From: a bacterium
GTDB taxonomy: Bacteria > UBP15 > UBA6099
DNA length: 64,000 nucleotides
Assembly (NCBI GenBank): GCA_029564595.1
Contig: JAKQPS010000176.1
Location: 1 to 64,000, forward strand
Reading direction: 5' to 3'
The position numbers and the translations under genes are program-made. The notes under the pieces were generated by a model. The model had not been told where the DNA came from. It was given only the letters and a program-made list of their open reading frames with translations, and ran no database searches. Each line of letters starts with the position of its first letter. Position 1 is the first letter of the stretch. Of the stretch, positions 8,453 to 22,098 are shown piece by piece.

Positions 8453-9727
8453 ATGGCAAAAGAGCGAGCGGCGGACGAAAAAAAGAAGGAAACCGGCGGC
8501 TCCGGCGGAGCGGGAGAGGTTTTCAGCGCAATCGCGGGAGCGGTGAAGGGTTTCTTTGCGTCTCTGTGGCAGGCGAAGCTGATACAGCTTCTCATCATCC
8601 TGCTTGCCATCTGCGTGGCGACAGCCTCGATAATGGGATTTATCATTGAGCGCGAAACGGAGATGTTCTCATCCGCGCCGGAGAGCGTGTTTCAGAGGTT
8701 CGTCGATTCGGTGTATTACACGATGGTTACGATGTCTACGGTGGGATACGGGGATTTTTCGCCTAAGACGCCGTCCGGCAAGATATGGGCGATAATCATA
8801 ATATTTTCCGGGGTTATCTGTTTTTCGCTGATGACGGCCACGTTCGCGTCGATCCGGGTGGCGCGGCTGATTAAGGAAGGCAGGGAACAGATGGATTTAT
8901 CCAAACTGAAAAACCACACGATAATCTGCGGCTGGAAGAAAAGGATGGAGCACACGCTCGAAGACATATTCACCGCCAACCCGGAGGTGAAACCTGAAGA
9001 GCTTGTCGTGCTCGCCAACATCTCGGAAGACACGATTTCGATGTTCAACAAGCAGCATCCGAAATTCAAGGGGATCAATTTCATAAGGTGCGAGGATGTG
9101 ACGGAGGCGATGCTGAATCTGGCGAACGTTGCGGCGGCGGGCAGGCTTTTCATACTGGCCGACGAGAGCGGAGACGCTTCCCAGTCCGAAATCGATTCGA
9201 GGACGGTAATGATTGCGATGTCGGTGTCTACGCTGAGCCGCAGCGTGAACATCTGCGCCGAGCTTCTCGACCCCAAGTTCGAGAGCTACCTGAAGAAAGC
9301 GCACGTCTCCGAAATTATCTATCCGAACCTTTACGGGAGGCTGATACTCGCCCAGTCCACAGCGTCCACCGGGATAGTGCAGGTGCTCAACTACCTGCTC
9401 GACCTGCGGGAGGCTCCGAGGTTCAACACCATCCGGTTTCCCGCCGAATACGTAGGCAAACCGTACGCGGACCTGAAGAAGCACGTCGAGAAGGAAAGAT
9501 GCTGCATAGCAATCGGGCTGGTGGAGAACGTGGGAAGTTATTTCGAGAGGAAGCAGGAGGCGCTGCGCGAGGCGCAGAAGACGGCCAACATCTCCAAGCT
9601 GGTGGACAACTTGCACAGGGTGAAAAGCCTCAAGAACAACCATCCTGTGTTCAACCCGCCGGACGACTATGTCGTCCCCTCTAATTCGATGGCGGTCATT
9701 ATCGAAGTGGTCGGAGAATGCAAATGA
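8453..9727 (+). CDS. Two-TM potassium channel with cytoplasmic RCK (TrkA-N) domain
   Basis: 424 residues. TM1 lies at about 42-65, then a pore helix, the selectivity filter TVGYGD at 96-101, and TM2 at about 110-138. After a short linker an RCK Rossmann domain begins at 155 (HTIICGWKKRMEHTLEDI), followed by a second RCK-like C-terminal lobe. The layout is that of MthK-type ligand-gated channels. The RCK nucleotide loop is not the classical GxGxxG, so the ligand is unclear. Its stop codon overlaps the start of a cyclic-nucleotide-binding protein by four bases, which suggests joint action. The start ATG follows a weak ribosome site. Confidence 0.9.
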   Translation: MAKERAADEKKKETGGSGGAGEVFSAIAGAVKGFFASLWQAKLIQLLIILLAICVATASIMGFIIERETEMFSSAPESVFQRFVDSVYYTMVTMSTVGYGDFSPKTPSGKIWAIIIIFSGVICFSLMTATFASIRVARLIKEGREQMDLSKLKNHTIICGWKKRMEHTLEDIFTANPEVKPEELVVLANISEDTISMFNKQHPKFKGINFIRCEDVTEAMLNLANVAAAGRLFILADESGDASQSEIDSRTVMIAMSVSTLSRSVNICAELLDPKFESYLKKAHVSEIIYPNLYGRLILAQSTASTGIVQVLNYLLDLREAPRFNTIRFPAEYVGKPYADLKKHVEKERCCIAIGLVENVGSYFERKQEALREAQKTANISKLVDNLHRVKSLKNNHPVFNPPDDYVVPSNSMAVIIEVVGECK

Positions 9728-10227
9728 GCGACATAGAAAAAATACTGCCGAAGCTGAAAACAATAAGCCTCTTCAAGGCGTTCGCGGAGGACGAGCCGGC
9801 GTTGAGGAAGCTCGCGTCGATAATGGAAATCCGCAAGTTCGCCGCCGGAGAGCGTATCATCGTCGAGGGCGAACAGGGCGACAACATGTTCATCCTGAGC
9901 AAGGGCAGCGTTAGCGTGGAGAAGAGGACGCTCAAAGACGACAGCTACACGGTGGTGAAGCTGGTGGAGTCGATGAACGTGTTTTTCGGCGAACTGGCGC
10001 TAATGGACGACGACGTAAGGTCCGCCACCGTGCTTGCCGAATCCGACTGCGAGTGTTTCAGCATAAAGAAGGCAGACTTCGAGCAACTGGGCGACGAGAA
10101 CCCGGTCATAGGGCTTAAGGTGACGCGGGAGATAGCGAAGATACTAGGCGCGCGGCTTCGCAACTCCAGCCGCGACAACATCATCCTGTTCGAGGCGCTG
10201 GTCTCGGAAATTGAAGACGTAGAATAA
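9724..10227 (+). CDS. Stand-alone cyclic-nucleotide-binding domain protein, coupled to the K+ channel
   Basis: 167 residues, essentially one CNBD. The beta-roll is visible in AGERIIVEGEQGDNMFILSKG and the phosphate-binding cassette in FFGELALMDDDVRSATV, with the key glutamate and arginine retained. There is no DNA-binding domain and no membrane segment. The ATG at 9724 overlaps the channel's TGA (ATGA) and has GGAG seven bases upstream; an in-frame ATG at 9718 is less well placed. The neighbour suggests a detached regulatory subunit of the channel. The C-terminal helix is where channel CNBDs usually connect to the pore. Confidence 0.85.
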   Translation: MSDIEKILPKLKTISLFKAFAEDEPALRKLASIMEIRKFAAGERIIVEGEQGDNMFILSKGSVSVEKRTLKDDSYTVVKLVESMNVFFGELALMDDDVRSATVLAESDCECFSIKKADFEQLGDENPVIGLKVTREIAKILGARLRNSSRDNIILFEALVSEIEDVE

Positions 10228-10348: not shown

Positions 10349-12796
10349 ATGAGACAGACGGACGGACGCCGGGAAAACGACACGGAAACAAATCTTGCGG
10401 CCCGGCTGGCGCTTATCCACAAACGGGTGTCGCTTACGACGCTGCTTATCTTCGCGGCGCTGTTGACCGCGCTGCTGGCAAAACAGTATTTCGATAAGAG
10501 AAGCGTCGCGTTGAGAGCCGCCGGCGACGATCTGGAAGAGCGGGCGCTGAGCGTGGATTATTTTCTAAGCAACGCGGCGGAAGACGTCATAGAGTCAAAG
10601 ATATGGGCGGAGAACTATCTGACGATGTCGGGGATGCCAGTATCGGGGACGGAGTTGACGGAGCCGATCAGGATTGACGCCGAATACGCTCTGAGGCTTG
10701 ACGCGCCGAGCGACGGAGCGAGTCACGGCAACATCCTTTCCGAAGGGGATATCGACCTGAGCGACGCGTCTCTCGTCAGGCAGATAAATATGGCTTTCCG
10801 CCTTTTCGAGGTTCAGCGAATCAATCACTACGCGCCTCCCGATTTCACTTGGAGCGAGTTCTATTCGACGAACGGATTCGGCTCGATTTACCCGTGGATC
10901 GAGAACGAAAAAGGAGCGACGATACTGGCGAGGCCGGTGTCGAGGAAGATGCTCGCAAGCTTCGCGAGCGAGCCGGGAGGGAAAGGCGCGCGAGCGGCGT
11001 TTGAATCTTTCGAGTGGAGCGAAGCGTACGCCGATTCGTCGGGAAAAGGGCTGATGGTGACGTGCGCGTCGCCAGTGTACGATTCCGGGGAACTGGCCGG
11101 GATGGTGTCGGCGGAGATGAGCCTGAGTTTCCTGAGCCATTTTGTGGACAAGCCGGGGTCTCCGAGAGAAATAGCGCTGATCGTCAACAGCGCTGGGCAG
11201 GTTCTCGCCGCCACCGGGATGCGGCCTGAAAAACTGAAAAGAGCGAGCGCTCTGAGGGAGATAGTCCCGGGCGCGCCGGAAAATCTGCTGAGCGCAAAAG
11301 GCGGAGGCGGCGTCGGCAGATACAAAGCCGACAGCGACAACATAATATCCATTCGGCTTAAGAACGCGGACTGGACGATGATGAAAATCGTTCCGGACGC
11401 GGACATAATGAGCGCGTTTCTGCCGGAAGCGCTTTTCGGGGCCGTTCTCATAGGGCTGATGTTCGGATTTCTGACAGCGGCCAACAGGGTGGTGAACAGG
11501 CATTTCGTGAACCCGGCGGTGGGGTTCGTGGGGTTCATAGAGACGGAGGCGAGGACAGGCTCGGCGCCGAAGCCGAGCGTGCCGCCCGCGTGGGAGGAGT
11601 GGTTCGTCAAGATATCCGATTTGCTGGCGTTGAAATCGGTCGCGGCCAATCTGCCGGGAGCGATATTTCAGATGAAAACCGCGCCGGGCGGCGGGATAAG
11701 GATGAGCTTGGCAAGTTCAGGAGCGGGCGCTCTTCTCGGCGTCTCCTTGGATAAGTTGTCGAACAGCGACGAATTGAATTTCGACTTTCTGTCTCCCGGC
11801 GACGCGCGGAGTTTCGCGGGGCTTATTAAAGAATCCGAATCGCGAATGGAGCCGTTCGCGTTCGAGGCGACGGCCGGAAGCGGCGAAGAGAACGGGAAAT
11901 GGGTGCGCTTCATACTCAGCCCCCGCAGGAGCGACGACCCGGAAGGCGGCACGATCTGGGACGGATTAATGCTGGACATATCCGACCGCAAAGCTCTCGA
12001 AGACGAGTTGCGCAGACACAGGGACGACCTCGAAAAAACGGTGGAAGAGAGAACGCGCGAACTGAAGTCAGTCAATGAAGAGTTGAGGAACGAGATAGCC
12101 GAAAGGATACGTTCGGAAAACGAGCTGAAGGCAAGCGAGGAGAGGCTGAGGGCGATGTCGCTGCAGGCGATGCGCGCGCAGGACGACGAGCGAGCGAGGT
12201 TGTCCAGAGAGTTGCACGACGAGATAGGGCAACAGATCGCCGCCGCCCTGTTCCAGTTGCCGGCGATACGGAACAAGCCCGACATCGGGCCTGAAGACAT
12301 CTCGAAGATCGAGGCGATGATAAGAGATATCGGAGGAGACCTGCAAAGGATATGCAAGGGATTGCAACCGATGACGCTCACGCAATTCGGGCTTGTCCCC
12401 GCGCTGAAAATGATGCTGTGGGATTTCATGAAGTCGTACGCTATCAAAATCGACGCGGCGATTGAAAATTTGGAATGCCGCGTGGATAATGAACGCGCGA
12501 GCGCCATATACAGGATTTGCCAAGAGGCGGTGTCCAACAGCGCGAGGCATTCAAAAGCGAGCCGGGTGTCAGTTGCCCTGCGGCGAGAGGGCGGAAAGAT
12601 AACGCTCGAAGTGAGCGACGACGGGATAGGGTTCGACCCGGAGACCGAGCGGGAAAGCTCGAAACTCGGGGTAATTGGAATGAAACAGAGAGCCGAACAG
12701 ATGGGCGGAGAGTTAAGGATTGACGCGGCGCCCGGACGCGGCGCCAGAGTGTCTCTGACGCTGGATATGGATAGCGCGGAAAGAGGAGCCACATGA
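10349..12796 (+). CDS. Sensor histidine kinase, NarL-partner type (HisKA_3), with extracytoplasmic sensor and PAS
   Basis: 815 residues. TM1 lies at about 26-46, a large periplasmic sensor of Cache/CHASE4 appearance from 50 to 350, and TM2 at about 355-376. A PAS-like segment lies at about 425-555 and a coiled coil at 555-600. The phosphoacceptor is in RLSRELHDEIGQQ (H623). The ATPase domain has N-box ICQEAVSNSARHSKAS and DDGIGF near 757. The overlap ATGA with the next gene pairs it with a LuxR-type regulator. The sensed signal cannot be read from sequence. Confidence 0.9.
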   Translation: MRQTDGRRENDTETNLAARLALIHKRVSLTTLLIFAALLTALLAKQYFDKRSVALRAAGDDLEERALSVDYFLSNAAEDVIESKIWAENYLTMSGMPVSGTELTEPIRIDAEYALRLDAPSDGASHGNILSEGDIDLSDASLVRQINMAFRLFEVQRINHYAPPDFTWSEFYSTNGFGSIYPWIENEKGATILARPVSRKMLASFASEPGGKGARAAFESFEWSEAYADSSGKGLMVTCASPVYDSGELAGMVSAEMSLSFLSHFVDKPGSPREIALIVNSAGQVLAATGMRPEKLKRASALREIVPGAPENLLSAKGGGGVGRYKADSDNIISIRLKNADWTMMKIVPDADIMSAFLPEALFGAVLIGLMFGFLTAANRVVNRHFVNPAVGFVGFIETEARTGSAPKPSVPPAWEEWFVKISDLLALKSVAANLPGAIFQMKTAPGGGIRMSLASSGAGALLGVSLDKLSNSDELNFDFLSPGDARSFAGLIKESESRMEPFAFEATAGSGEENGKWVRFILSPRRSDDPEGGTIWDGLMLDISDRKALEDELRRHRDDLEKTVEERTRELKSVNEELRNEIAERIRSENELKASEERLRAMSLQAMRAQDDERARLSRELHDEIGQQIAAALFQLPAIRNKPDIGPEDISKIEAMIRDIGGDLQRICKGLQPMTLTQFGLVPALKMMLWDFMKSYAIKIDAAIENLECRVDNERASAIYRICQEAVSNSARHSKASRVSVALRREGGKITLEVSDDGIGFDPETERESSKLGVIGMKQRAEQMGGELRIDAAPGRGARVSLTLDMDSAERGAT

Positions 12797-13434
12797 CAAG
12801 AATAATAGTCGCGGACGACCACACGCTCGTGCGGGCGGGAATCTGCGCCCTGCTTAACTCGCAAAAGGACTTTCAGGTAATCGCCGAAACGGGCAACGGA
12901 AAGGAAACCGTCGAGCTATGCGAGCGCTTGAAACCGGACATCCTGCTGCTAGACCTCAGCATGCCGGAAATGGACGGCTTGGAGGCGACTAAATCCATCC
13001 TCTCTTCAAACCCGTCAATCAAGATAGTAGTGCTCACTATGTATGAAAACGAGGAATACGCCACCAGGCTGATCAACGCGGGGGCGAAAGGGTTCCTCGT
13101 GAAACGCATGTCTCCGGACGAGCTTCCCGATTCCATCAGAAAAGTCGTGGCCGGAGAGGTCTGCATCACAGACTCGATCATGAGACAGATAGCGCTTCGG
13201 AAAACCAGTTCCGGCGACCAAAGCCCGCTGTCCCTTCTTTCCGACCGAGAGCTTCAAATCTTCCACAATCTAGCCAGAGGACTGAGCGGCGTTCAGGTGT
13301 CGGACGAGCTTGATTTAAGCCCCAGTTCAGTGGCCACTTACAAGTCCCGCATAATGGACAAACTCGGACTGAAAAACCAAGCGGAACTGATGAGATTCGC
13401 TCTCAGGCTCGGCCTGATCGACAAGTTCGAATAA
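12793..13434 (+). CDS. Response regulator of NarL/FixJ type
   Basis: 213 residues. The receiver domain has acidic pocket D8/D9, phosphoacceptor D54 (LLLDLSMPEMDG), T82 and K104. The C-terminal LuxR-type helix-turn-helix begins with LSDRELQIFHNLARGLSG and contains SPSSVATYKSRIMDKLGL. Its start overlaps the kinase stop by four bases, so the two form one transcription unit. Target genes are unknown; the DUF1538 operon that starts 318 bp downstream is the nearest candidate. Confidence 0.93.
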   Translation: MTRIIVADDHTLVRAGICALLNSQKDFQVIAETGNGKETVELCERLKPDILLLDLSMPEMDGLEATKSILSSNPSIKIVVLTMYENEEYATRLINAGAKGFLVKRMSPDELPDSIRKVVAGEVCITDSIMRQIALRKTSSGDQSPLSLLSDRELQIFHNLARGLSGVQVSDELDLSPSSVATYKSRIMDKLGLKNQAELMRFALRLGLIDKFE

Positions 13435-13752: not shown

Positions 13753-15879
13753 ATGAGCAATCAACAGCAATCCGGCGGAAAGATAAAAGTCGGTTTCAAG
13801 CAGGCGGCGGCGATGCTGTTTCCGTACGCCAAGTCGCGCATAGTCGAGCAGATCAAATCCGTGGCGTTGATAATCATCTACCTGATATTGTTCCAGACAG
13901 TCGTGCTGGGGATAGCGATAGCGCAGGCTTCGCTGATCGCGGTGGGGCTGGCGCTGGTCATCGGCGGGCTGGCGTTCTTCATGGAAGGGCTGCTGCTGGG
14001 GCTGATGCCGCTGGGGGAAGTCATAGGGCTGAAGTTGCCTCAGAAGTCCAAGCTGCCAGTCATACTGGGCTTCGCTTTCATACTGGGAGCCGGGGCGACG
14101 TTCGCAGAGCCGGCTATAAGCGTGCTGAAAGCGGCCGGCTCCTCGGTCAAGCCATGGGACGCCCCTCTGCTCTTCCTCATGCTCAACAAATTCTCCGGCT
14201 ATCTCGTGATGTCCGTCGGCGCGGGCGTCGGCATCGCCGTCATGTTCGGAATGATACGCTTCATGTACAACATCTCTCTTAAACCTTTCATTTACATCCT
14301 AGTTTCTTTTTTGATCGTTTTCACATTGTGGTCGTTCTTCAGCGAAAACATGAGAAATATCACCGGGCTGGCGTGGGACTGCGGAGCCGTCACCACCGGC
14401 CCCGTCACTGTTCCCCTCGTTCTGGCTCTCGGCATAGGCATCTGTCGCGTGGTCGGCTCGTCGGGTTCCGGGTCGTCCGGATTCGGCGTGGTTACACTGG
14501 CCTCTTTGTTCCCGATAATCTCGGTGCTCATACTCGGCTCTGTTCTTTCAAGCAGCGTTCCGCCCCCGATGGCGGAAAAGGAATTCTTCAGCGCCGCCAA
14601 CAGGGACAAAGCGGAGAAACTTTTCGACAGCCGGGAGGGCATGCTCGGATACGCTTTCCAGAACGCCAAAGAAGAAAGCCAGTTGGCGTTGTTCGACGGC
14701 GACCGCGGAAAGATGCTCGAATACGTGTCCGGCCTCAAATACGATGTAGACCAAGCCGCCGCCGTTTTTGGAGCCGGAGCGGAAGCCATGCAAAAATGGG
14801 CCGCTTTGAAGGGAACCGCCGAGCAGCAGTCGGCGGTTTTCGCGGACAAGTCCGCGACGCTCGCGGCGGTCCAGAAGTTTTCCAGCGTGATGGAAGAGCC
14901 GTTGCGCCCGTCCGAACTCATGTTGCGGAACATCAAAGCGGCGGCTCAGGCGATCATCCCTCTTTCCATCTTCTTCCTGCTCGTGCTCACTTTGTTGCTG
15001 AGGGAGAAGCTGCCGCGCGCGGACGAGGTTTTCCTCGGTCTCGGATTCGCCGTCATCGGAATGATGCTCTTCAATATCGGCATCGAGATAGGCCTTTCCC
15101 GGCTTGGCAATCAGGTGGGCGGAAAAGTCCCGTCGGCTTTCAAAGCCGTCGAGCTTCACGAGCAGCGCAGCGCCATCAACGGGTTCGACCCGGGCATCGT
15201 GAAGACGGCCATCTCCCCGGCCGGGGAGCTTGAGTCGTTCTTCTACGTCAAAGGCAAAACCGGATACAGCCAACTGCCGTTCAAGGAAGAGCAGCACAAT
15301 CCGGAGACGAAACAATACAACTTCACGCCGACTCGCGGGCCGTTGTTCGGAGCCGAGGGAGCGCTTTCAGGCATAATCGTCGCGCTCATTTTCGCGTTCG
15401 CGCTCGGATACGGCGCCACGCTCGCCGAACCGGCGCTTAACGCTCTTGGCATCACCGTCGAAGAGTTGACCGTCGGCGCTTTCAAGAAATCGCTTCTTAT
15501 GCAGGCTGTCGCTCTCGGCGTGGGCGTCGGCATCGCTCTCGGCGTGGCGAAAATCGTATGGAACATTCCCTTGATCTGGATGCTGGGGCCGCCATATATC
15601 CTGTTGCTGATTATCACCAAGATATCCACCGAGGAATTCGTGAACATAGGATGGGACAGCGCGGGAGTCACCACAGGCCCGATAACGGTCCCGCTGGTGC
15701 TCGCGATGGGGCTGGGGATCGGCGGTCAAGTCGGCGTGGTGGAAGGCTTCGGCATCCTCAGCATGGCGTCCGTGTGCCCGATTCTGTCCGTGCTGATGGT
15801 CGGGCTGATGGTAACTAAAAAGAGAAAAGCGGCGCTTCAGGATAACGCCGCCACTGAGCGCGCGGAGGTGGCGGCATGA
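13753..15879 (+). CDS. DUF1538 family membrane protein, internally duplicated (probable transporter)
   Basis: 708 residues with two homologous membrane halves. GATFAEPA (near 116) and the WDCGAVTTGPVTVPLVLALG segment (near 209) recur as GATLAEPA (near 555) and WDSAGVTTGPITVPLVLAMG (near 635). Between the halves lies a hydrophilic region at about 275-395. The inverted or repeated halves with conserved TTGP and AEPA re-entrant-like motifs are typical of DUF1538 proteins, whose substrate is not known. The next gene, encoding PII-like domains, starts inside its stop (ATGA). That arrangement parallels AmtB-GlnK, a transporter controlled by a PII protein, and suggests the same logic here. Confidence 0.85.
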   Translation: MSNQQQSGGKIKVGFKQAAAMLFPYAKSRIVEQIKSVALIIIYLILFQTVVLGIAIAQASLIAVGLALVIGGLAFFMEGLLLGLMPLGEVIGLKLPQKSKLPVILGFAFILGAGATFAEPAISVLKAAGSSVKPWDAPLLFLMLNKFSGYLVMSVGAGVGIAVMFGMIRFMYNISLKPFIYILVSFLIVFTLWSFFSENMRNITGLAWDCGAVTTGPVTVPLVLALGIGICRVVGSSGSGSSGFGVVTLASLFPIISVLILGSVLSSSVPPPMAEKEFFSAANRDKAEKLFDSREGMLGYAFQNAKEESQLALFDGDRGKMLEYVSGLKYDVDQAAAVFGAGAEAMQKWAALKGTAEQQSAVFADKSATLAAVQKFSSVMEEPLRPSELMLRNIKAAAQAIIPLSIFFLLVLTLLLREKLPRADEVFLGLGFAVIGMMLFNIGIEIGLSRLGNQVGGKVPSAFKAVELHEQRSAINGFDPGIVKTAISPAGELESFFYVKGKTGYSQLPFKEEQHNPETKQYNFTPTRGPLFGAEGALSGIIVALIFAFALGYGATLAEPALNALGITVEELTVGAFKKSLLMQAVALGVGVGIALGVAKIVWNIPLIWMLGPPYILLLIITKISTEEFVNIGWDSAGVTTGPITVPLVLAMGLGIGGQVGVVEGFGILSMASVCPILSVLMVGLMVTKKRKAALQDNAATERAEVAA

Positions 15880-17000
15880 GCGACGGCAAACGCATGGCAA
15901 GAGTCTCCGCCGCGACCCACAGAGGAATGGCGGAACAGATATTCATCAAGCTCCGCGAATGCGGGATAACGGGCGGCCACCTCGCCGCCGGGCGCTCTAT
16001 AATGCTCGAAGACAAAAAAGGCTTCCTCGGCGTCGGGGCGCGCTCGGCCATCGTCGAGGACCCCATCGAAATCATTTCCATTATCGCGCCGACGGAAATG
16101 GAGTCCGCCGTCCTCGACGCGGTAGTGTCCGCCGGACGAATCGACATCCCGGGGCGCGGCTCCGTCCACAGCGAGGAAATCGTTCTTCTTAAGGCTCACG
16201 AGTTGTGCGTCGAACAGCCTCGCGGTTGCGTTTCCGGGCAGCAGGGCGGCGCTCAATACATCGAGGAGTTGATGGGCATCTGCTGCATCGTGCAGCGCGG
16301 TCAGGGCGACGCCGTAGCCCGCGTCGCTCTAGACACCGGAACATGCGTGCCCGCCATCACTTTCGGCCTAGGCACCGGAGTGCGCGACAAACTCGGCCTG
16401 CTCCGCATCGCCATCCCCGCCGACAAGGAAGTCGTCGCTCTCGCCGCCAGCGTGCATGACGCCGACGCGGTCATGGAACTGATGATTGACATCGGTAGGC
16501 TCGACGAGCCCGGCAAAGGATTCATCCATCTGTTCCCCATCCGCAAGGGCGTCGTGAACACCAAGATAACGCGCGGAATGCCCAAACACGCCGCAAGCAT
16601 CGAACAGATAATCTCCGCCCTCGATCAGATAAAGGGCGGAACGCAATGGCGCAGCAGAAGCGGCATGGCGGCAGACGGCGTGTCGTCTCGAAGAAAATAT
16701 CTTTCCGGCTTGTCCGGGCTTTCTCTCATCTGCGACGAAGGGCGCGCGGACGACCTTGTGAAAGCCGCGATGTCCGCCGGAGCCGCCGGAGCCACCATCA
16801 GCCGCCTCAAACACGTCAGGCCTCAGGACTCGCCGCTCGCTCAGATTTCTCCAGCCCGCGAACTGTGCGACATGATTGTGGGCGAACAGCAGATACCGGC
16901 CATCCTCGCCGCTCTGGAAAATGCCGGCGCGTTCGACGACAAATCACACGGCCTTCTCTTTTCAAAGCCCGTCCCGAAGGCCTGCACCTTCCTCGGATAG
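15876..17000 (+). CDS. Protein with three PII-like (GlnB/GlnK-type) domains
   Basis: 374 residues. Domain 1 lies at about 18-112 and ends with GRIDIPGRGSVHSEEIVLL. Domain 2 lies at about 133-230 and contains GTGVRDKLGLLRIAIP and GRLDEPGKGFIHLFPI. Domain 3, at about 278-374, ends with FDDKSHGLLFSKPV. Each has the PII pattern of a beta strand, a long loop, a second half and a GxGxx strand near the end. Ordinary PII proteins are about 112 residues and form trimers; here one chain could make a trimer-like unit by itself. Domain 3 is the most divergent. It overlaps the DUF1538 gene by four bases. No uridylylation tyrosine can be assigned. Confidence 0.75.
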   Translation: MSDGKRMARVSAATHRGMAEQIFIKLRECGITGGHLAAGRSIMLEDKKGFLGVGARSAIVEDPIEIISIIAPTEMESAVLDAVVSAGRIDIPGRGSVHSEEIVLLKAHELCVEQPRGCVSGQQGGAQYIEELMGICCIVQRGQGDAVARVALDTGTCVPAITFGLGTGVRDKLGLLRIAIPADKEVVALAASVHDADAVMELMIDIGRLDEPGKGFIHLFPIRKGVVNTKITRGMPKHAASIEQIISALDQIKGGTQWRSRSGMAADGVSSRRKYLSGLSGLSLICDEGRADDLVKAAMSAGAAGATISRLKHVRPQDSPLAQISPARELCDMIVGEQQIPAILAALENAGAFDDKSHGLLFSKPVPKACTFLG

Positions 17001-17050
17001 GCGCGGGCGCGCGTCCCGCGCCGCGGCCCGAAGCCGCAAAGGAGCCTAAT

Positions 17051-17221
17051 GTGAAAAATCCTGCTTCGTCAGCGAACGACGCTATAGCTTCAGGCTCGAT
17101 CTCGGACTCCTTTGCCTCTCTCTCCCCGCAGGCGATGTTCGTCGCTTTCGCCGTCGTCGCTCTGGCGGTTGCCGCCGTCGCCGCTTTTTTGTTCACAAGA
17201 TTTCTCGAAAGAAGAAAGTAA
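17051..17221 (+). CDS. 56-residue single-pass membrane protein in the DUF1538 operon
   Basis: The frame starts with GTG at 17051, seven bases after an excellent AAAGGAG, and encodes 56 residues. A Ser/Ala-rich N-terminus is followed by one hydrophobic helix (MFVAFAVVALAVAAVAAFLF) and a basic tail FTRFLERRK, giving an N-out/C-in topology. The strong ribosome site and its place between two operon genes argue that it is real. It resembles small accessory subunits of transporters in size and layout, but no family is recognised. Confidence 0.7.
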   Translation: MKNPASSANDAIASGSISDSFASLSPQAMFVAFAVVALAVAAVAAFLFTRFLERRK

Positions 17222-17233
17222 AGGAGAACCGCG

Positions 17234-17509
17234 ATGAACGCTATGAACGCCGCGATTGAAGATTGCCGTTACGCAACAATGGAGACGCCGCGCGCGTTGT
17301 CCGCCAGGCGCGACAAGATAAAAGACGCGGCGGGTCAAGACAAGACAAGCAAGGGCGCCTCCGAGGCGGCCGCGCTCCCGGCGCTCCCCGGAAACGCCGC
17401 TATGGATTCAGCCGACAACTCCCTCGTCATTCCGGGCGCGGCTTCGCGCGACAACCCCTCGCTCCGCAAATCGGACGACGAAATCATCAACGGCGTTCCT
17501 CTGGTGTAG
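17234..17509 (+). CDS. 91-residue soluble protein of unknown function, last gene of the DUF1538 operon
   Basis: An AAAGGAG ribosome site at 17220-17226 precedes the ATG at 17234; another ATG four codons on is possible. The protein is hydrophilic and Ala/Asp/Ser-rich, probably largely disordered, and ends with DDEIINGVPLV. No signal peptide or membrane segment is present. No family is recognised. Spacing of 12 bases from the preceding small gene places it in the same operon. After its stop the opposite-strand binding-protein gene converges from 17537. Confidence 0.6.
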   Translation: MNAMNAAIEDCRYATMETPRALSARRDKIKDAAGQDKTSKGASEAAALPALPGNAAMDSADNSLVIPGAASRDNPSLRKSDDEIINGVPLV

Positions 17510-17536: not shown

Positions 17537-18601
17537 TCAGTCCATGCAGGACATCACGCACGAGGCCCCTGCCGCGCCGCATTTTTTCTTGCAGTAATTC
17601 ATGTCCGGCTTCACCGCGACCGGCTTGCCGGGAGACGCCTTCTGCAACTGTTCGGAGAGATATTTCGCCTCGTCCACCCAGCCGAGCTTTTTGGCTTTCT
17701 TGTACAACGCCAACTCATAATCGTACTCGTCCCGGGAGGCCGGGATAAATTTCATTTTTATCATCTTCGTGTATTCAATCGGCGCGCGCAACTGTGGATG
17801 CGTCTTCGAGCGCTTGTCCAGTTTCATTATCGATTCCTTCAGTATCGGCGTCGCCTTCGCCAGATGCTCTTTCTTCACTGTCTTGGGATTGATCGCTATC
17901 ATGCCCCTGTTGTGGACGGCTTCCGTGCAGAAACCATATGACAGTTGAGACCTGACATCCGGCTGAAAAACCTTCAGGATGCTGTCCGCCTCGATGCCGC
18001 TCCACGCGATGTCTCCATCCCCTTTTGCCAGCATCATAAACGTCGTGTTCGGGTTGGGCGCCACAGTGAAACTTTTGAATGCCTTCCACAGCGGCTTGTC
18101 TATCCCGTTGGACGCAAGATGATCCCTCAACTCCAGATATCCGAAATACCCCGTCGCTCCCCACAGAAGGTTTTTTTCTTCCAATTCCGCCAAGCTCTTC
18201 AGCGTTTCCTTTTTCCTGTTCCACACGCACAGCTTATTCTTTCTGTCCTTGCCGATGACGTACGTGGCCCACGGATACACCTCTCCGCCGCTCTCGATTA
18301 TTTCCATTATCGCGCCGTTGTCCAACAGCCCGCCGTCTATCTTGTTCGCTTTGAAAGCCTCCGTCACCGCCTCGTTCGACGGGAATCTTTTTATCTCCAC
18401 CTTGAAGCCGGTCTCCGCCACCGCAAGCTCCGCCACCGTCGTCGCTATCTCATAATAGAAAGACGAGCTTTTGCCGCCCACCGAAGAAAAATGGAACCCC
18501 ATCGCATAGTCATATCCCGGCGACGCGTCCGAGGCCGAAACCGTAACGCCCGCCAGAGCTGCGCACGCCGCGATAATGCATATCAGCGCTGTTCTTTTCA
18601 T
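17537..18601 (-). CDS. PhnD-like periplasmic substrate-binding protein with cysteine-rich tail
   Basis: 354 residues. Signal peptide MKRTALICIIAACAALAGVT; the ATG at 18601 has GGAGAG upstream and is preferred over longer frames. The mature protein has the two-lobe pattern of the PhnD/phosphite and TRAP-TAXI class: GFKVEIKRFPSNEAVTEAF, GGLLDNGAIMEI, and GDIAWSGIEADSILKVFQP. No ABC permease or ATPase gene is next to it, so it may act as an orphan sensor or work with distant partners. The C-terminus carries four cysteines in NYCKKKCGAAGASCVMSCMD, which is unusual and may bind metal or form disulfides. It is divergent from the adenylate cyclase gene across about 155 bp. Confidence 0.75.
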   Translation of the reverse strand: MKRTALICIIAACAALAGVTVSASDASPGYDYAMGFHFSSVGGKSSSFYYEIATTVAELAVAETGFKVEIKRFPSNEAVTEAFKANKIDGGLLDNGAIMEIIESGGEVYPWATYVIGKDRKNKLCVWNRKKETLKSLAELEEKNLLWGATGYFGYLELRDHLASNGIDKPLWKAFKSFTVAPNPNTTFMMLAKGDGDIAWSGIEADSILKVFQPDVRSQLSYGFCTEAVHNRGMIAINPKTVKKEHLAKATPILKESIMKLDKRSKTHPQLRAPIEYTKMIKMKFIPASRDEYDYELALYKKAKKLGWVDEAKYLSEQLQKASPGKPVAVKPDMNYCKKKCGAAGASCVMSCMD

Positions 18602-18755
18602 CAAGACTCTCTCCGAGTTGTTTTCCGCGCTCTTATTATATACTCTTTTCGCGCGTCGGCAAATAATCCCGCCTCGCATCCGGCCCGCCTCGTTTCTGAT
18701 ATAATCATCTTGCGGAAAAATAATATTCGTTTGCGCGGCCCGCTTGTCCGACGTC

Positions 18756-20540
18756 ATGGCTAAAGAGATTAAAGATATCGCGTCTGTGAGAAAAACCAGA
18801 ACCCTCGGGTTCAGGCTTTCGCTTCTGGTTTCCGCCGCAATCATCCTGTTCGGAATCGTCTCGATATGGTTCGTCGCGTTCTGGCAGGAGAGTTCCTACA
18901 AGAACGAGAAGCGCCGGCAATGGAGCATCGCGGTGGACTCGCTGATGCCCAACCTCGCAAACGCCCTCTCCTCGGACAACTCGGACGCGATTAAGTTCAC
19001 TCTCGACCGTCTGGCTTCAAAAAATGAAGACATCAGGTCGCTCGTTCTCGCCGACGAAAAAGGCCGCGTCGTCTATTCTCTGGACGAAAAACTCGTCGGC
19101 AAGCCGCTGGATGAAAAAACGAAAGCCGCCCTGTCAGAGACAAACGGCAAAGAGGAAAAGTCCGGGTTGCCCCTCAGGCAGTACTCGCGCGAGATTAAAA
19201 CCGAGTGGACCAGCCTCGGCCGCCTGTACGCCGGGTTCGCCGTCATGAACTCGCTGGAGAAAGAGCGCCAGAGAAGCATCCTCGCGCTCGAATACATGAT
19301 TGACAACGCGGTCCGCAACGCGGTCCTCTCTTTCGACTTCTACGAGGCCGACCACATCGCGCATGAGATTGTCAAAAACGTGGACGACGTGAAGTTCTTC
19401 AAAATCGTCGCAGCCGACGGCGTCATCCTTTCAAGCTCGGACGACAAAGAGACGCTCAAACAGACGGAAGACGCGCGCCTGTCCGAAATCCTCGCTTCCG
19501 AGGGCGTCAACAGACCGGTTTGGACTAGGATGTTCAAGTCCGAAGGCGCGAGAATCCTCGAAGTCACCCTCGTGATGATCGAGGGAAACGAAAAACTCGG
19601 CGCGATTCAAATCGGCTACGACATATCCTCGCTCAGCGCGTCGGTGAAAAGAAGGAACGCGATACTCGTCCTGCTGTCGGCGGCGGCGGTGGCTATCGCG
19701 GCGATGATAGCAATCATAATCGCCGGAAGGATATCCCGCCCGGTCGCCCACCTGTCCCATGTGGCCCTTCAAGTCGGCGCCGGAGACTTGGACGCCCGCG
19801 CGGAAGTTTCTTCGGGCGGCGACGAAATGCGCCTGCTCGGCTCCGCGTTCAACAAAATGATCGCCGGCCTCAAAGAGCGAGACCTGATTAAGGACACATT
19901 CTCAAGATACGTAACAAAACAGGTCGCCGACGAAATCCTCAAAGACCCCGCCGGTGTCTCTCTCGGCGGCGTCAAGCGCGAGGCGACCATCCTTTTCTCC
20001 GACATCAGAGGCTTCACCGCGTTCGCCGAACGGCATGAGCCGGAAGACGTCATCGCCCGGCTCAACGAGTACCTTGCGGCTATGGTGGACGTGATTTTCA
20101 AATACGAAGGCACGCTCGACAAATTTATCGGCGACGCGATAATGGCCGTTTACGGTTCTCCTATCTCCCGCGAGGACGACCCTCTTCGCGCCGCCATGAC
20201 CGCTCTCGAAATGAGGGAAAGGCTTCAAATCCTGAATGAAAAATGGGCCGCCGAAGGCAGGGAGCCTCTCAAAATCGGCATCGGCATCAACGCCGGCGAA
20301 GTTATAGCAGGCAACATAGGCGACGTCCGCCGCATGGAATACACCGTCATCGGCGACAACGTCAACCTCGCATCCCGCATCGAAGGCCTCACAAAAATCT
20401 TCGACTGCCCCATCATTATCAGCGGCAGCGTTTTTGAAAAAATCAAAGACCGCGTCGTCGCCGTCAAACTCGAATCCACGTTCGTCAAAGGAAAAACCCT
20501 AGCCGTGGAGATTTACGAGCTTAAAGACCTCGCCCGCTGA
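18756..20540 (+). CDS. Membrane-bound class III adenylate cyclase with HAMP domain
   Basis: 594 residues. TM1 lies near 18-40, a periplasmic sensor region fills roughly 45-295, TM2 lies near 300-322 and is followed by a HAMP segment. The cyclase domain starts near 400. Metal-binding aspartates are D416 in FSDIRGF and D460 in KFIGDAIMAVYG. YTVIGDNVNLASRIEG supplies the base-selecting aspartate and the transition-state Asn and Arg; with the lysine in LDKFIGD this favours ATP over GTP. An in-frame TTG at 18744 is possible, but ATG 18756 is more normal. Two other proteins in this window carry cAMP-type pockets, so this enzyme is their likely source of signal. Confidence 0.92.
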   Translation: MAKEIKDIASVRKTRTLGFRLSLLVSAAIILFGIVSIWFVAFWQESSYKNEKRRQWSIAVDSLMPNLANALSSDNSDAIKFTLDRLASKNEDIRSLVLADEKGRVVYSLDEKLVGKPLDEKTKAALSETNGKEEKSGLPLRQYSREIKTEWTSLGRLYAGFAVMNSLEKERQRSILALEYMIDNAVRNAVLSFDFYEADHIAHEIVKNVDDVKFFKIVAADGVILSSSDDKETLKQTEDARLSEILASEGVNRPVWTRMFKSEGARILEVTLVMIEGNEKLGAIQIGYDISSLSASVKRRNAILVLLSAAAVAIAAMIAIIIAGRISRPVAHLSHVALQVGAGDLDARAEVSSGGDEMRLLGSAFNKMIAGLKERDLIKDTFSRYVTKQVADEILKDPAGVSLGGVKREATILFSDIRGFTAFAERHEPEDVIARLNEYLAAMVDVIFKYEGTLDKFIGDAIMAVYGSPISREDDPLRAAMTALEMRERLQILNEKWAAEGREPLKIGIGINAGEVIAGNIGDVRRMEYTVIGDNVNLASRIEGLTKIFDCPIIISGSVFEKIKDRVVAVKLESTFVKGKTLAVEIYELKDLAR

Positions 20541-20727: not shown

Positions 20728-22098
20728 ATGGAGTTCCTGACCCAGCCATACATGATGGCGTTTTGGTTCGGCGCGCTGACCGCCGCTTCGCTGCCTCTGG
20801 GCGCGATGCTGGGTATATGGCTTAAGCCGTCCACGAAGATTGTCGCCGCGTTAATGGCGTTCGGCGCGGGCAACCTTTTGAGCGCTCTCACACTTGAACT
20901 TATCGAACCGTCGTTCATCCACACCGGCTTCTGGCCGATAAGCATAGGCTGCATTCTCGGCGGGACGGTTTTCGTTCTCCTGAACCAGCTTCTGGATAAG
21001 ATGGGCGGCTACATGCGCAAAGCGTCCACTCTCGTTTCCCACATAAAAGCCAAGAAACGCAGCGAGATGCAGGACATGATAGAAAAACTAAGCCAAGTGG
21101 ACATACTTCGCTCGCTTCCTCCGCAGGAAATCCATCATATCGCGCCTAGCGTCGCGGACCGCTCCTTTAAAAAGGGCGACATCATTTTCAGACAGGGAGA
21201 CGTGGGAACTCGGCTCTACTTAATCGAGAGCGGAACAGTCAAGATTGAAAGAAAAGGAAACGGCGACAAAGAGGTGACTATATCCGAACTGGGGCCGGGA
21301 GAAACATTCGGAGAGATGGCCCTCTTATGGAAAGAGCCTCGAACGGCCACTGTCACCGCCGCTTCCGATGTTTTGCTATTGGAGATTCACAGAGACGATT
21401 TCGAAAAGATACTCAAGGCCAGCCCGTCGTTGCGCGCGGATGTTGAAAAACTGGCGGACCAAAGGAAAAAAGGGCTTGCCGCCGCCGCCGTTCTAAGCCC
21501 GGAGGAATGGAAACGGGAAGCGATACAGCGCCTTCACGAGGAAGACACTAGACCTTCGTCAGTCGAGATGGAGCAGGCGTTGAAAGAAGGCCATGCGGGA
21601 GGGGGCGCGGCGCTCTCCATGTGGCTCGGCATATTTCTCGACGGCATCCCGGAATCCCTCGTCATCGGAGCCAGCATGATCGGCAAAGCAGTCAGCCCGG
21701 CGCTCGTCGGCGGCCTTTTCTTCGCAAACCTTCCAGAAGCCATGTCCAGCGGCGCAATGATGAAAAAACAGGGGAAAAGCACAAGCTCGATTTTCTGGAT
21801 GTGGATGTCGCTCTGCGTCATGACCGGAGTCGGCGCGCTGCTCGGCAATATCCTATTCGTCGGCCTCTCGCCGTCAATCCATTCGCTCTTCGGCGGCCTC
21901 GCCGCCGGAGCCATGCTCGCGATGATCGCTCAGACGATGCTGCCGGAGGCTTATGAGCACGGCGGCTGGCTAGTCGGCATCCTCACCGTGTTAGGATTCC
22001 TTTCGGCCCTCATGTTCCGCGCCATCGGCCACGCGGCTTCTGCGGCGGAGCATCACGGCTCAATAATTCAGTCTCTGCTGCAAACGCTCGGAGCTTAG
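20728..22098 (+). CDS. ZIP-family metal transporter with cyclic-nucleotide-binding domain inserted between TM3 and TM4
   Basis: 456 residues. Three membrane helices occupy about 8-90. A complete CNBD follows at about 122-240, with phosphate-binding cassette [16 protein letters not shown] (194-209) that keeps the Glu and Arg which contact cyclic phosphate. Five more helices follow from about 293. The second part carries the ZIP metal-site helices [16 protein letters not shown] (D305, E309) and [12 protein letters not shown] (N334, E337). In the usual ZIP motif HNxPEG the histidine is replaced here by aspartate. In known ZIP topology the TM3-TM4 loop is cytosolic, so the domain sits where cAMP could gate transport. 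The gene follows the adenylate cyclase gene on the same strand. Confidence 0.82.

Follow-up and report, generated by a model that had tools for sequence, protein, structure and literature searches.

A conserved gene pair encodes a fused DUF1538 membrane protein and a three-lobed PII-like protein: a possible PII-gated cation/proton antiporter module in a UBP15 bacterium

We analyzed a 64,000-nt stretch of bacterial DNA (contig JAKQPS010000176.1 of assembly GCA_029564595.1, lineage UBP15; hereafter the window) and found that it encodes, on its forward strand, a fused two-repeat membrane protein of 708 amino acids (aa) that belongs to the DUF1538 family and is UmpA/UmpB-like (open reading frame, ORF, 13753..15879). 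The gene overlaps in an ATGA with the next ORF (15876..17000), whose 374-aa product is made up of three PII-like lobes. The transporter-PII pair is real and well conserved, and is best read as extending the principle of PII-controlled transport with a new variant. With moderate confidence, we propose that the two genes specify a PII-gated monovalent-cation/H+ antiporter module, in which a fused DUF1538 transporter of the UmpAB type is governed by PII lobes carried in one chain. A sequence-only reading of the locus had described a four-gene operon that also comprised two small genes encoding proteins of 56 and 91 aa. All four ORFs were present, the ATGA overlap was seen, and an AAAGGAG site preceded both small ORFs.

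Results

Conservation of the DUF1538-PII gene pair

DUF1538 was surveyed in 386 genomes sampled across the domain, of which nearly all belong to phyla other than that of the window. Matches were obtained in 27 genomes, one of them weak, and the other 26 held 30 loci, the window included. At 29 of these 30 loci a PII gene was the next gene downstream on the same strand, nearly always overlapping the DUF1538 gene or separated from it by a gap of no more than ~30 bases. The single-lobe PIIs sampled at DUF1538 loci passed the Pfam P-II cut-off (PF00543), and the same pair was found on plasmids of Paraclostridium, Methylocystis, Chelativorans, Vescimonas, and Peptoclostridium, where the PII gene is annotated as a "P-II family nitrogen regulator". 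The system was present in two of the seven genomes of the window's phylum. In another phylum, that of genome G099, the three-lobe profile matched 22 of 28 genomes, and DUF1538 immediately preceded the match wherever this could be checked. The adjacency is of the kind known for AmtB-GlnK, and both canonical PII genes of the window's own genome (L005 and L006; G000 contigs C80 and C131) directly follow ammonium-transporter genes. Because the PII gene follows the transporter gene so consistently, the two products probably work together. Of the earlier proposal of a PII-gated transport system with small accessory subunits, the pairing of transporter and PII thus gained support from its conservation, whereas the small genes, described below, were not conserved.

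It is quite unlikely, in our estimate, that the three-lobed protein acts elsewhere, e.g., on a histidine kinase or in metabolism, and is merely co-expressed with the transporter. PII proteins have many soluble targets, and genes for a histidine kinase and a response regulator lie upstream of the pair in two genomes, which would fit such a role. These genes, however, are missing at most DUF1538-PII loci, while the transporter-PII pair is near-universal.

Three PII-like lobes in a single chain

Pfam and NCBIfam alone gave no PII call on the 374-aa protein. A profile of the PIIs from other DUF1538 loci matched three stretches of it, which were delimited as lobe 1 (residues ~8-106), lobe 2 (~130-228), and lobe 3 (~276-366), with a conserved helical linker between the last two (~229-275). 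By profile-profile comparison, lobes 1, 2, and 3 matched the single-lobe PIIs of DUF1538 loci with probabilities of 98.6, 99.6, and 98.6%, respectively; 20 column-shuffled controls per lobe all remained below 5%, and the linker matched nothing. When compared with the PDB, the three-lobe profile matched solved PIIs (1hwu, E=5e-6), as expected of a member of the PII superfamily. Direct matches between the lobes and the genome's own two canonical PIIs were weak (hhalign, 0.8-41%), so that the case for PII membership was made through the intermediate single-lobe family and the PDB profile hits. An AlphaFold2 (AF2) model built from three sequences, although of low confidence (pLDDT 55, pTM 0.64), showed a beta-alpha-beta-beta-alpha-beta order in each lobe, and Foldseek matched the lobes of this model individually to GlnK folds (probability 1.00, TMt 0.54-0.63), among other ferredoxin-like folds. 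The three PII-like domains postulated from the sequence alone were therefore borne out by profile comparison and the PDB profile search and, at low confidence, by the order of elements in the model. Weak Pfam/NCBIfam matches of the 374-aa protein to Jag/EloR amounted to noise, and this candidate was dropped after the comparison with single-lobe PIIs.

In a tree of 74 lobes, types T1, T2, and T3 each formed one clade (99/98, 98/90, and 100/94, respectively), which indicates that the triplication arose once. Lobe 2 was the best conserved (27/99 columns, vs. 2/99 in lobe 1 and 11/91 in lobe 3) and is probably the sensing lobe. We envisage that the three fused lobes fold as a built-in pseudo-trimer, in which lobe 2 would probably bind the ligand and the diverged lobes 1 and 3 would be mainly structural. 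An arrangement that we regard as somewhat doubtful is one with no single-chain pseudo-trimer at all, in which three chains associate as a homotrimer by way of one lobe, either lobe 2 or a different one, and lobes 1 and 3 serve as additional modules for interaction. The far lower conservation of lobes 1 and 3 is consistent with a homotrimer, as are the lack of a global match to a PII trimer when the AF2 model was searched with Foldseek and the existence of two-lobed and one-plus-two-lobed relatives. What speaks for the pseudo-trimer instead is that exactly three lobes, the number that one trimer needs, occurred in 28 distinct three-lobe sequences.

The number of lobes varied with the form of the transporter. 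Split UmpA/UmpB-like pairs and single DUF1538 genes were accompanied by one PII lobe, fusions of ~500 aa by two lobes in one gene or two (none in G042), and fusions of 578-600 aa by one to three lobes in total. Long fusions (636-724 aa) were accompanied by three lobes in one chain in 10 of 10 cases. Nine of these long proteins formed one clade (100/99), and the placement of the tenth (L069) was unsure. The link between three lobes and a long fusion largely reflects a single event in evolution that was passed on to the descendants, and for this reason was not treated as independent support. At one locus (L061 5339-6562), a one-lobe and a two-lobe PII lie behind one DUF1538 fusion, giving three lobes in two chains.

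Ligand-site residues of the PII lobes

Forty-six lobes, either single or in second position in a two- or three-lobed chain, were placed in an alignment with both canonical PIIs from the window's genome. K90 was replaced by I, F, or L in all 46 lobes and R101 and R103 were not retained; G87, G89, and K58 were mostly retained. The T-loop was ~4 residues shorter than that of canonical PII and had no Tyr51. The full signature of a canonical nitrogen-sensing PII (K58, K90, R101, R103, and a long T-loop with Tyr51) was not found. Loss of K90, R101, and R103 makes canonical ATP binding by the DUF1538-linked lobes unlikely, and these lobes may respond to something other than ATP and 2-oxoglutarate, the canonical pair of ligands.

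The DUF1538 protein

The 708-aa protein contained two PF07556 stretches (E=3.9e-105; 350 bits against a Pfam cut-off of 22.6) and is thus a member of DUF1538. Four acidic residues, one pair per repeat (E119, D209, E559, and D635), were invariant in 36 of 36 homologues. Two large inserts without membrane character (residues ~273-392 and ~452-528) were evident from hydropathy; the simplest topology suggested by hydropathy and charge would place both termini inside and both inserts outside. No solved structure related in sequence to this protein was found. The sequence-only reading had called the substrate unknown. That statement needs correction, in that the DUF1538 pair UmpAB of Halomonas zhaodongensis has been measured to be a Na+(Li+,K+)/H+ antiporter (PMC5484666) and the substrate is therefore not wholly unknown.

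Gene neighborhood

Four genes precede the pair on the same strand. They encode an Ion_trans_2 K+-channel-type protein with an RCK/TrkA domain (8453..9727), a protein with a cyclic nucleotide monophosphate (cNMP)-binding domain (9718..10227), a sensor histidine kinase with an MCP-like PDC domain (10349..12796), and, directly upstream of the DUF1538 ORF, a NarL-type response regulator (12793..13434). All four were conserved together with DUF1538 and PII in genome G001 (L009/L074, the upstream genes on L074), in which PII is followed by a 129-aa protein with two transmembrane segments (TMs) and then by a soluble RCK-like protein. A distant genome (G138, L059) likewise has the channel and cNMP genes next to the pair, so that this association was seen in three genomes, the window's own included. 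Neighbors at other DUF1538-PII loci were Kup, MscS, DUF1646, SSF, OAD_beta, or CBS. The order umpA-umpB-PII-CBS, by which a CBS-pair protein is added to the module, occurred in two genomes (L047 5798-6187 and L067 5782-6186). A CitMHS-like DUF1646 transporter was located directly behind DUF1538-PII in two genomes belonging to one family (L048 2650-3708 and L068 4609-5664), and L068 carried two DUF1538-PII units in tandem.

The small ORFs and the end of the locus

The 56-aa ORF (17051..17221, forward strand) encodes a single-TM protein and begins with GTG rather than ATG, and the 91-aa ORF (17234..17509, forward strand) begins with ATG and encodes a soluble, probably disordered orphan. Their in-frame codon biases (0.275 and 0.376, respectively) were close to those of real genes, whose 5th percentile is 0.29, and one antisense frame of the 56-aa ORF scored higher (0.419). 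Searched against G001, the 56-aa protein had its top hit (E=0.33 genome-wide) exactly at the last TM of the syntenic 129-aa protein (L009 9289-9678), a similarity that reached ~0.01 by composition-keeping shuffle. No counterpart was found at the eight other three-lobe loci examined with their flanks, at which unrelated genes lay downstream. For the 91-aa ORF, neither the related loci nor the seven genomes of the phylum yielded a homologue, and membership of this ORF in the system is not supported. It is very unlikely that the two small proteins are working subunits of a four-part system. Good ribosome-binding sites, in-frame codon bias, and, for the 56-aa protein, a counterpart at the corresponding place in G001 argue for such a role, but neither small gene occurred at the eight other loci and the 91-aa ORF stands without relatives. 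Conservation of the four-gene operon proposed earlier was consequently not supported, and the survey of gene order that had been suggested with it showed conservation of the two-gene core and not of the four-gene order.

A promoter scan of the locus gave no signal above shuffles, and no terminator was found 3' of the 91-aa ORF (after 17509). Convergent with the operon, on the minus strand, is a gene for a phosphonate-type substrate-binding protein with a cysteine-rich C-terminus (17537-18727). Farther along are a class III nucleotide cyclase (18744-20540) and, near it, a ZIP-family metal transporter (20728-22098; barely over the cut-off) whose membrane parts are interrupted by a cyclic-nucleotide-binding domain.

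Discussion

In the mechanism that we propose, the core would consist of two genes, one for a fused DUF1538 monovalent-cation/proton antiporter and one for a dedicated PII-like protein. The latter would sense a cytoplasmic signal and, by touching the transporter directly, switch it in the way that GlnK switches AmtB. Cation-related neighbors (K+-channel-RCK with the cNMP-binding protein, and, at other loci, Kup, MscS, DUF1646, SSF, and OAD_beta) favor a role in K+/Na+ homeostasis, and the module may serve K+/Na+/pH homeostasis with the K+ channel-RCK, cNMP-binding protein, and two-component system encoded nearby. Several observations weigh against this proposal. The 708-aa protein scored 183 bits against the NCBIfam equivalog UmpA and 154 bits against UmpB, short of the cut-offs of 490 and 500, and the substrate was therefore transferred at the family level only. 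Just one DUF1538 pair, UmpAB, has been assayed so far, and one sampled DUF1538 locus (G042, L050) has no neighboring PII. Cation-related neighbors vary between genomes and are absent at many loci. Finally, the AF2 model of the DUF1538 protein was weak (pLDDT 41), as was that of the three-lobed protein.

These points bear on a second explanation, which we judge unlikely: PII would be a dedicated regulator, but of a transporter for something other than Na+/K+ (e.g., an anion or an organic solute), and antiport by UmpAB would be a side activity or a trait of its branch. In its favor are the use of a heterologous host in the UmpAB assay (PMC5484666), the low equivalog scores of the window protein together with its large extra domains, and the SSF, OAD_beta, and DUF1646/CitMHS-like carriers that adjoin other loci. 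The K+ channel-RCK, Kup, and MscS neighbors and the paired invariant acidic residues in each repeat argue instead for a cation substrate, as does the listing of DUF1538 with K+ transporters among predictors of growth pH (PMC13255231). We retain the PII-gated cation/proton antiporter as our working proposal. More tentatively, DUF1538 might represent a widespread class of monovalent-cation transporters gated by PIIs of a subfamily that swapped canonical ATP sensing for another ligand; in one branch, one chain of three lobes, each with a different cleft, would have taken the place of the PII homotrimer and would allow one molecule both to report and to gate.

The window's DUF1538 protein shares with UmpAB (NCBIfam NF041627/NF041628) the family PF07556 and two homologous halves. 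PII is not mentioned in the text of the UmpAB paper (PMC5484666), and no paper tying DUF1538 to PII was found in the part of the open-access literature that was examined; public annotation already places the two genes side by side. The window protein differs from UmpAB in that its halves are fused, inserts of ~120 and 75 residues are present, and a PII gene follows.

Proteins of the PII type are known chiefly as homotrimeric sensors of nitrogen, carbon, and energy. In AmtB-GlnK, NrtBCD-PII, and SbtA-SbtB, transporters are under the control of trimeric proteins of the PII superfamily. The window resembles AmtB-GlnK in that a transporter gene is paired with a gene for a PII fold, and direct control may be a further likeness; it differs in its unrelated transporter family, in having three lobes per chain and a short T-loop without Tyr51, and in lacking K90, R101, and R103. 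If our proposal is correct, a family of Na+/K+:H+ antiporters has a near-universal PII partner, and ion and pH homeostasis joins the processes controlled by PII. A three-lobed chain would also permit the three PII clefts to be mutated singly, which is impossible in a homotrimer.

Among the known systems closest to that of the window are also the P-II regulators encoded beside DUF1538 in Methylocystis rosea (WP_124740562.1) and Paraclostridium bifermentans (WP_247013837.1), which occupy the same position and belong to the same PII subfamily. The single-lobe profile of DUF1538-linked P-II regulators matches every lobe of the window protein, but those regulators are one- or two-lobed, not three-lobed. 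Among solved structures, 9p1x_H was nearest to the single-lobe DUF1538-linked PIIs (E=3.3e-12); the chains of 9p1x are probably a NifI1/NifI2 heteromeric PII pair. Like the three-lobed protein, NifI1/NifI2 form a PII complex of unequal lobes, but they do so as separate chains and act on a different target.

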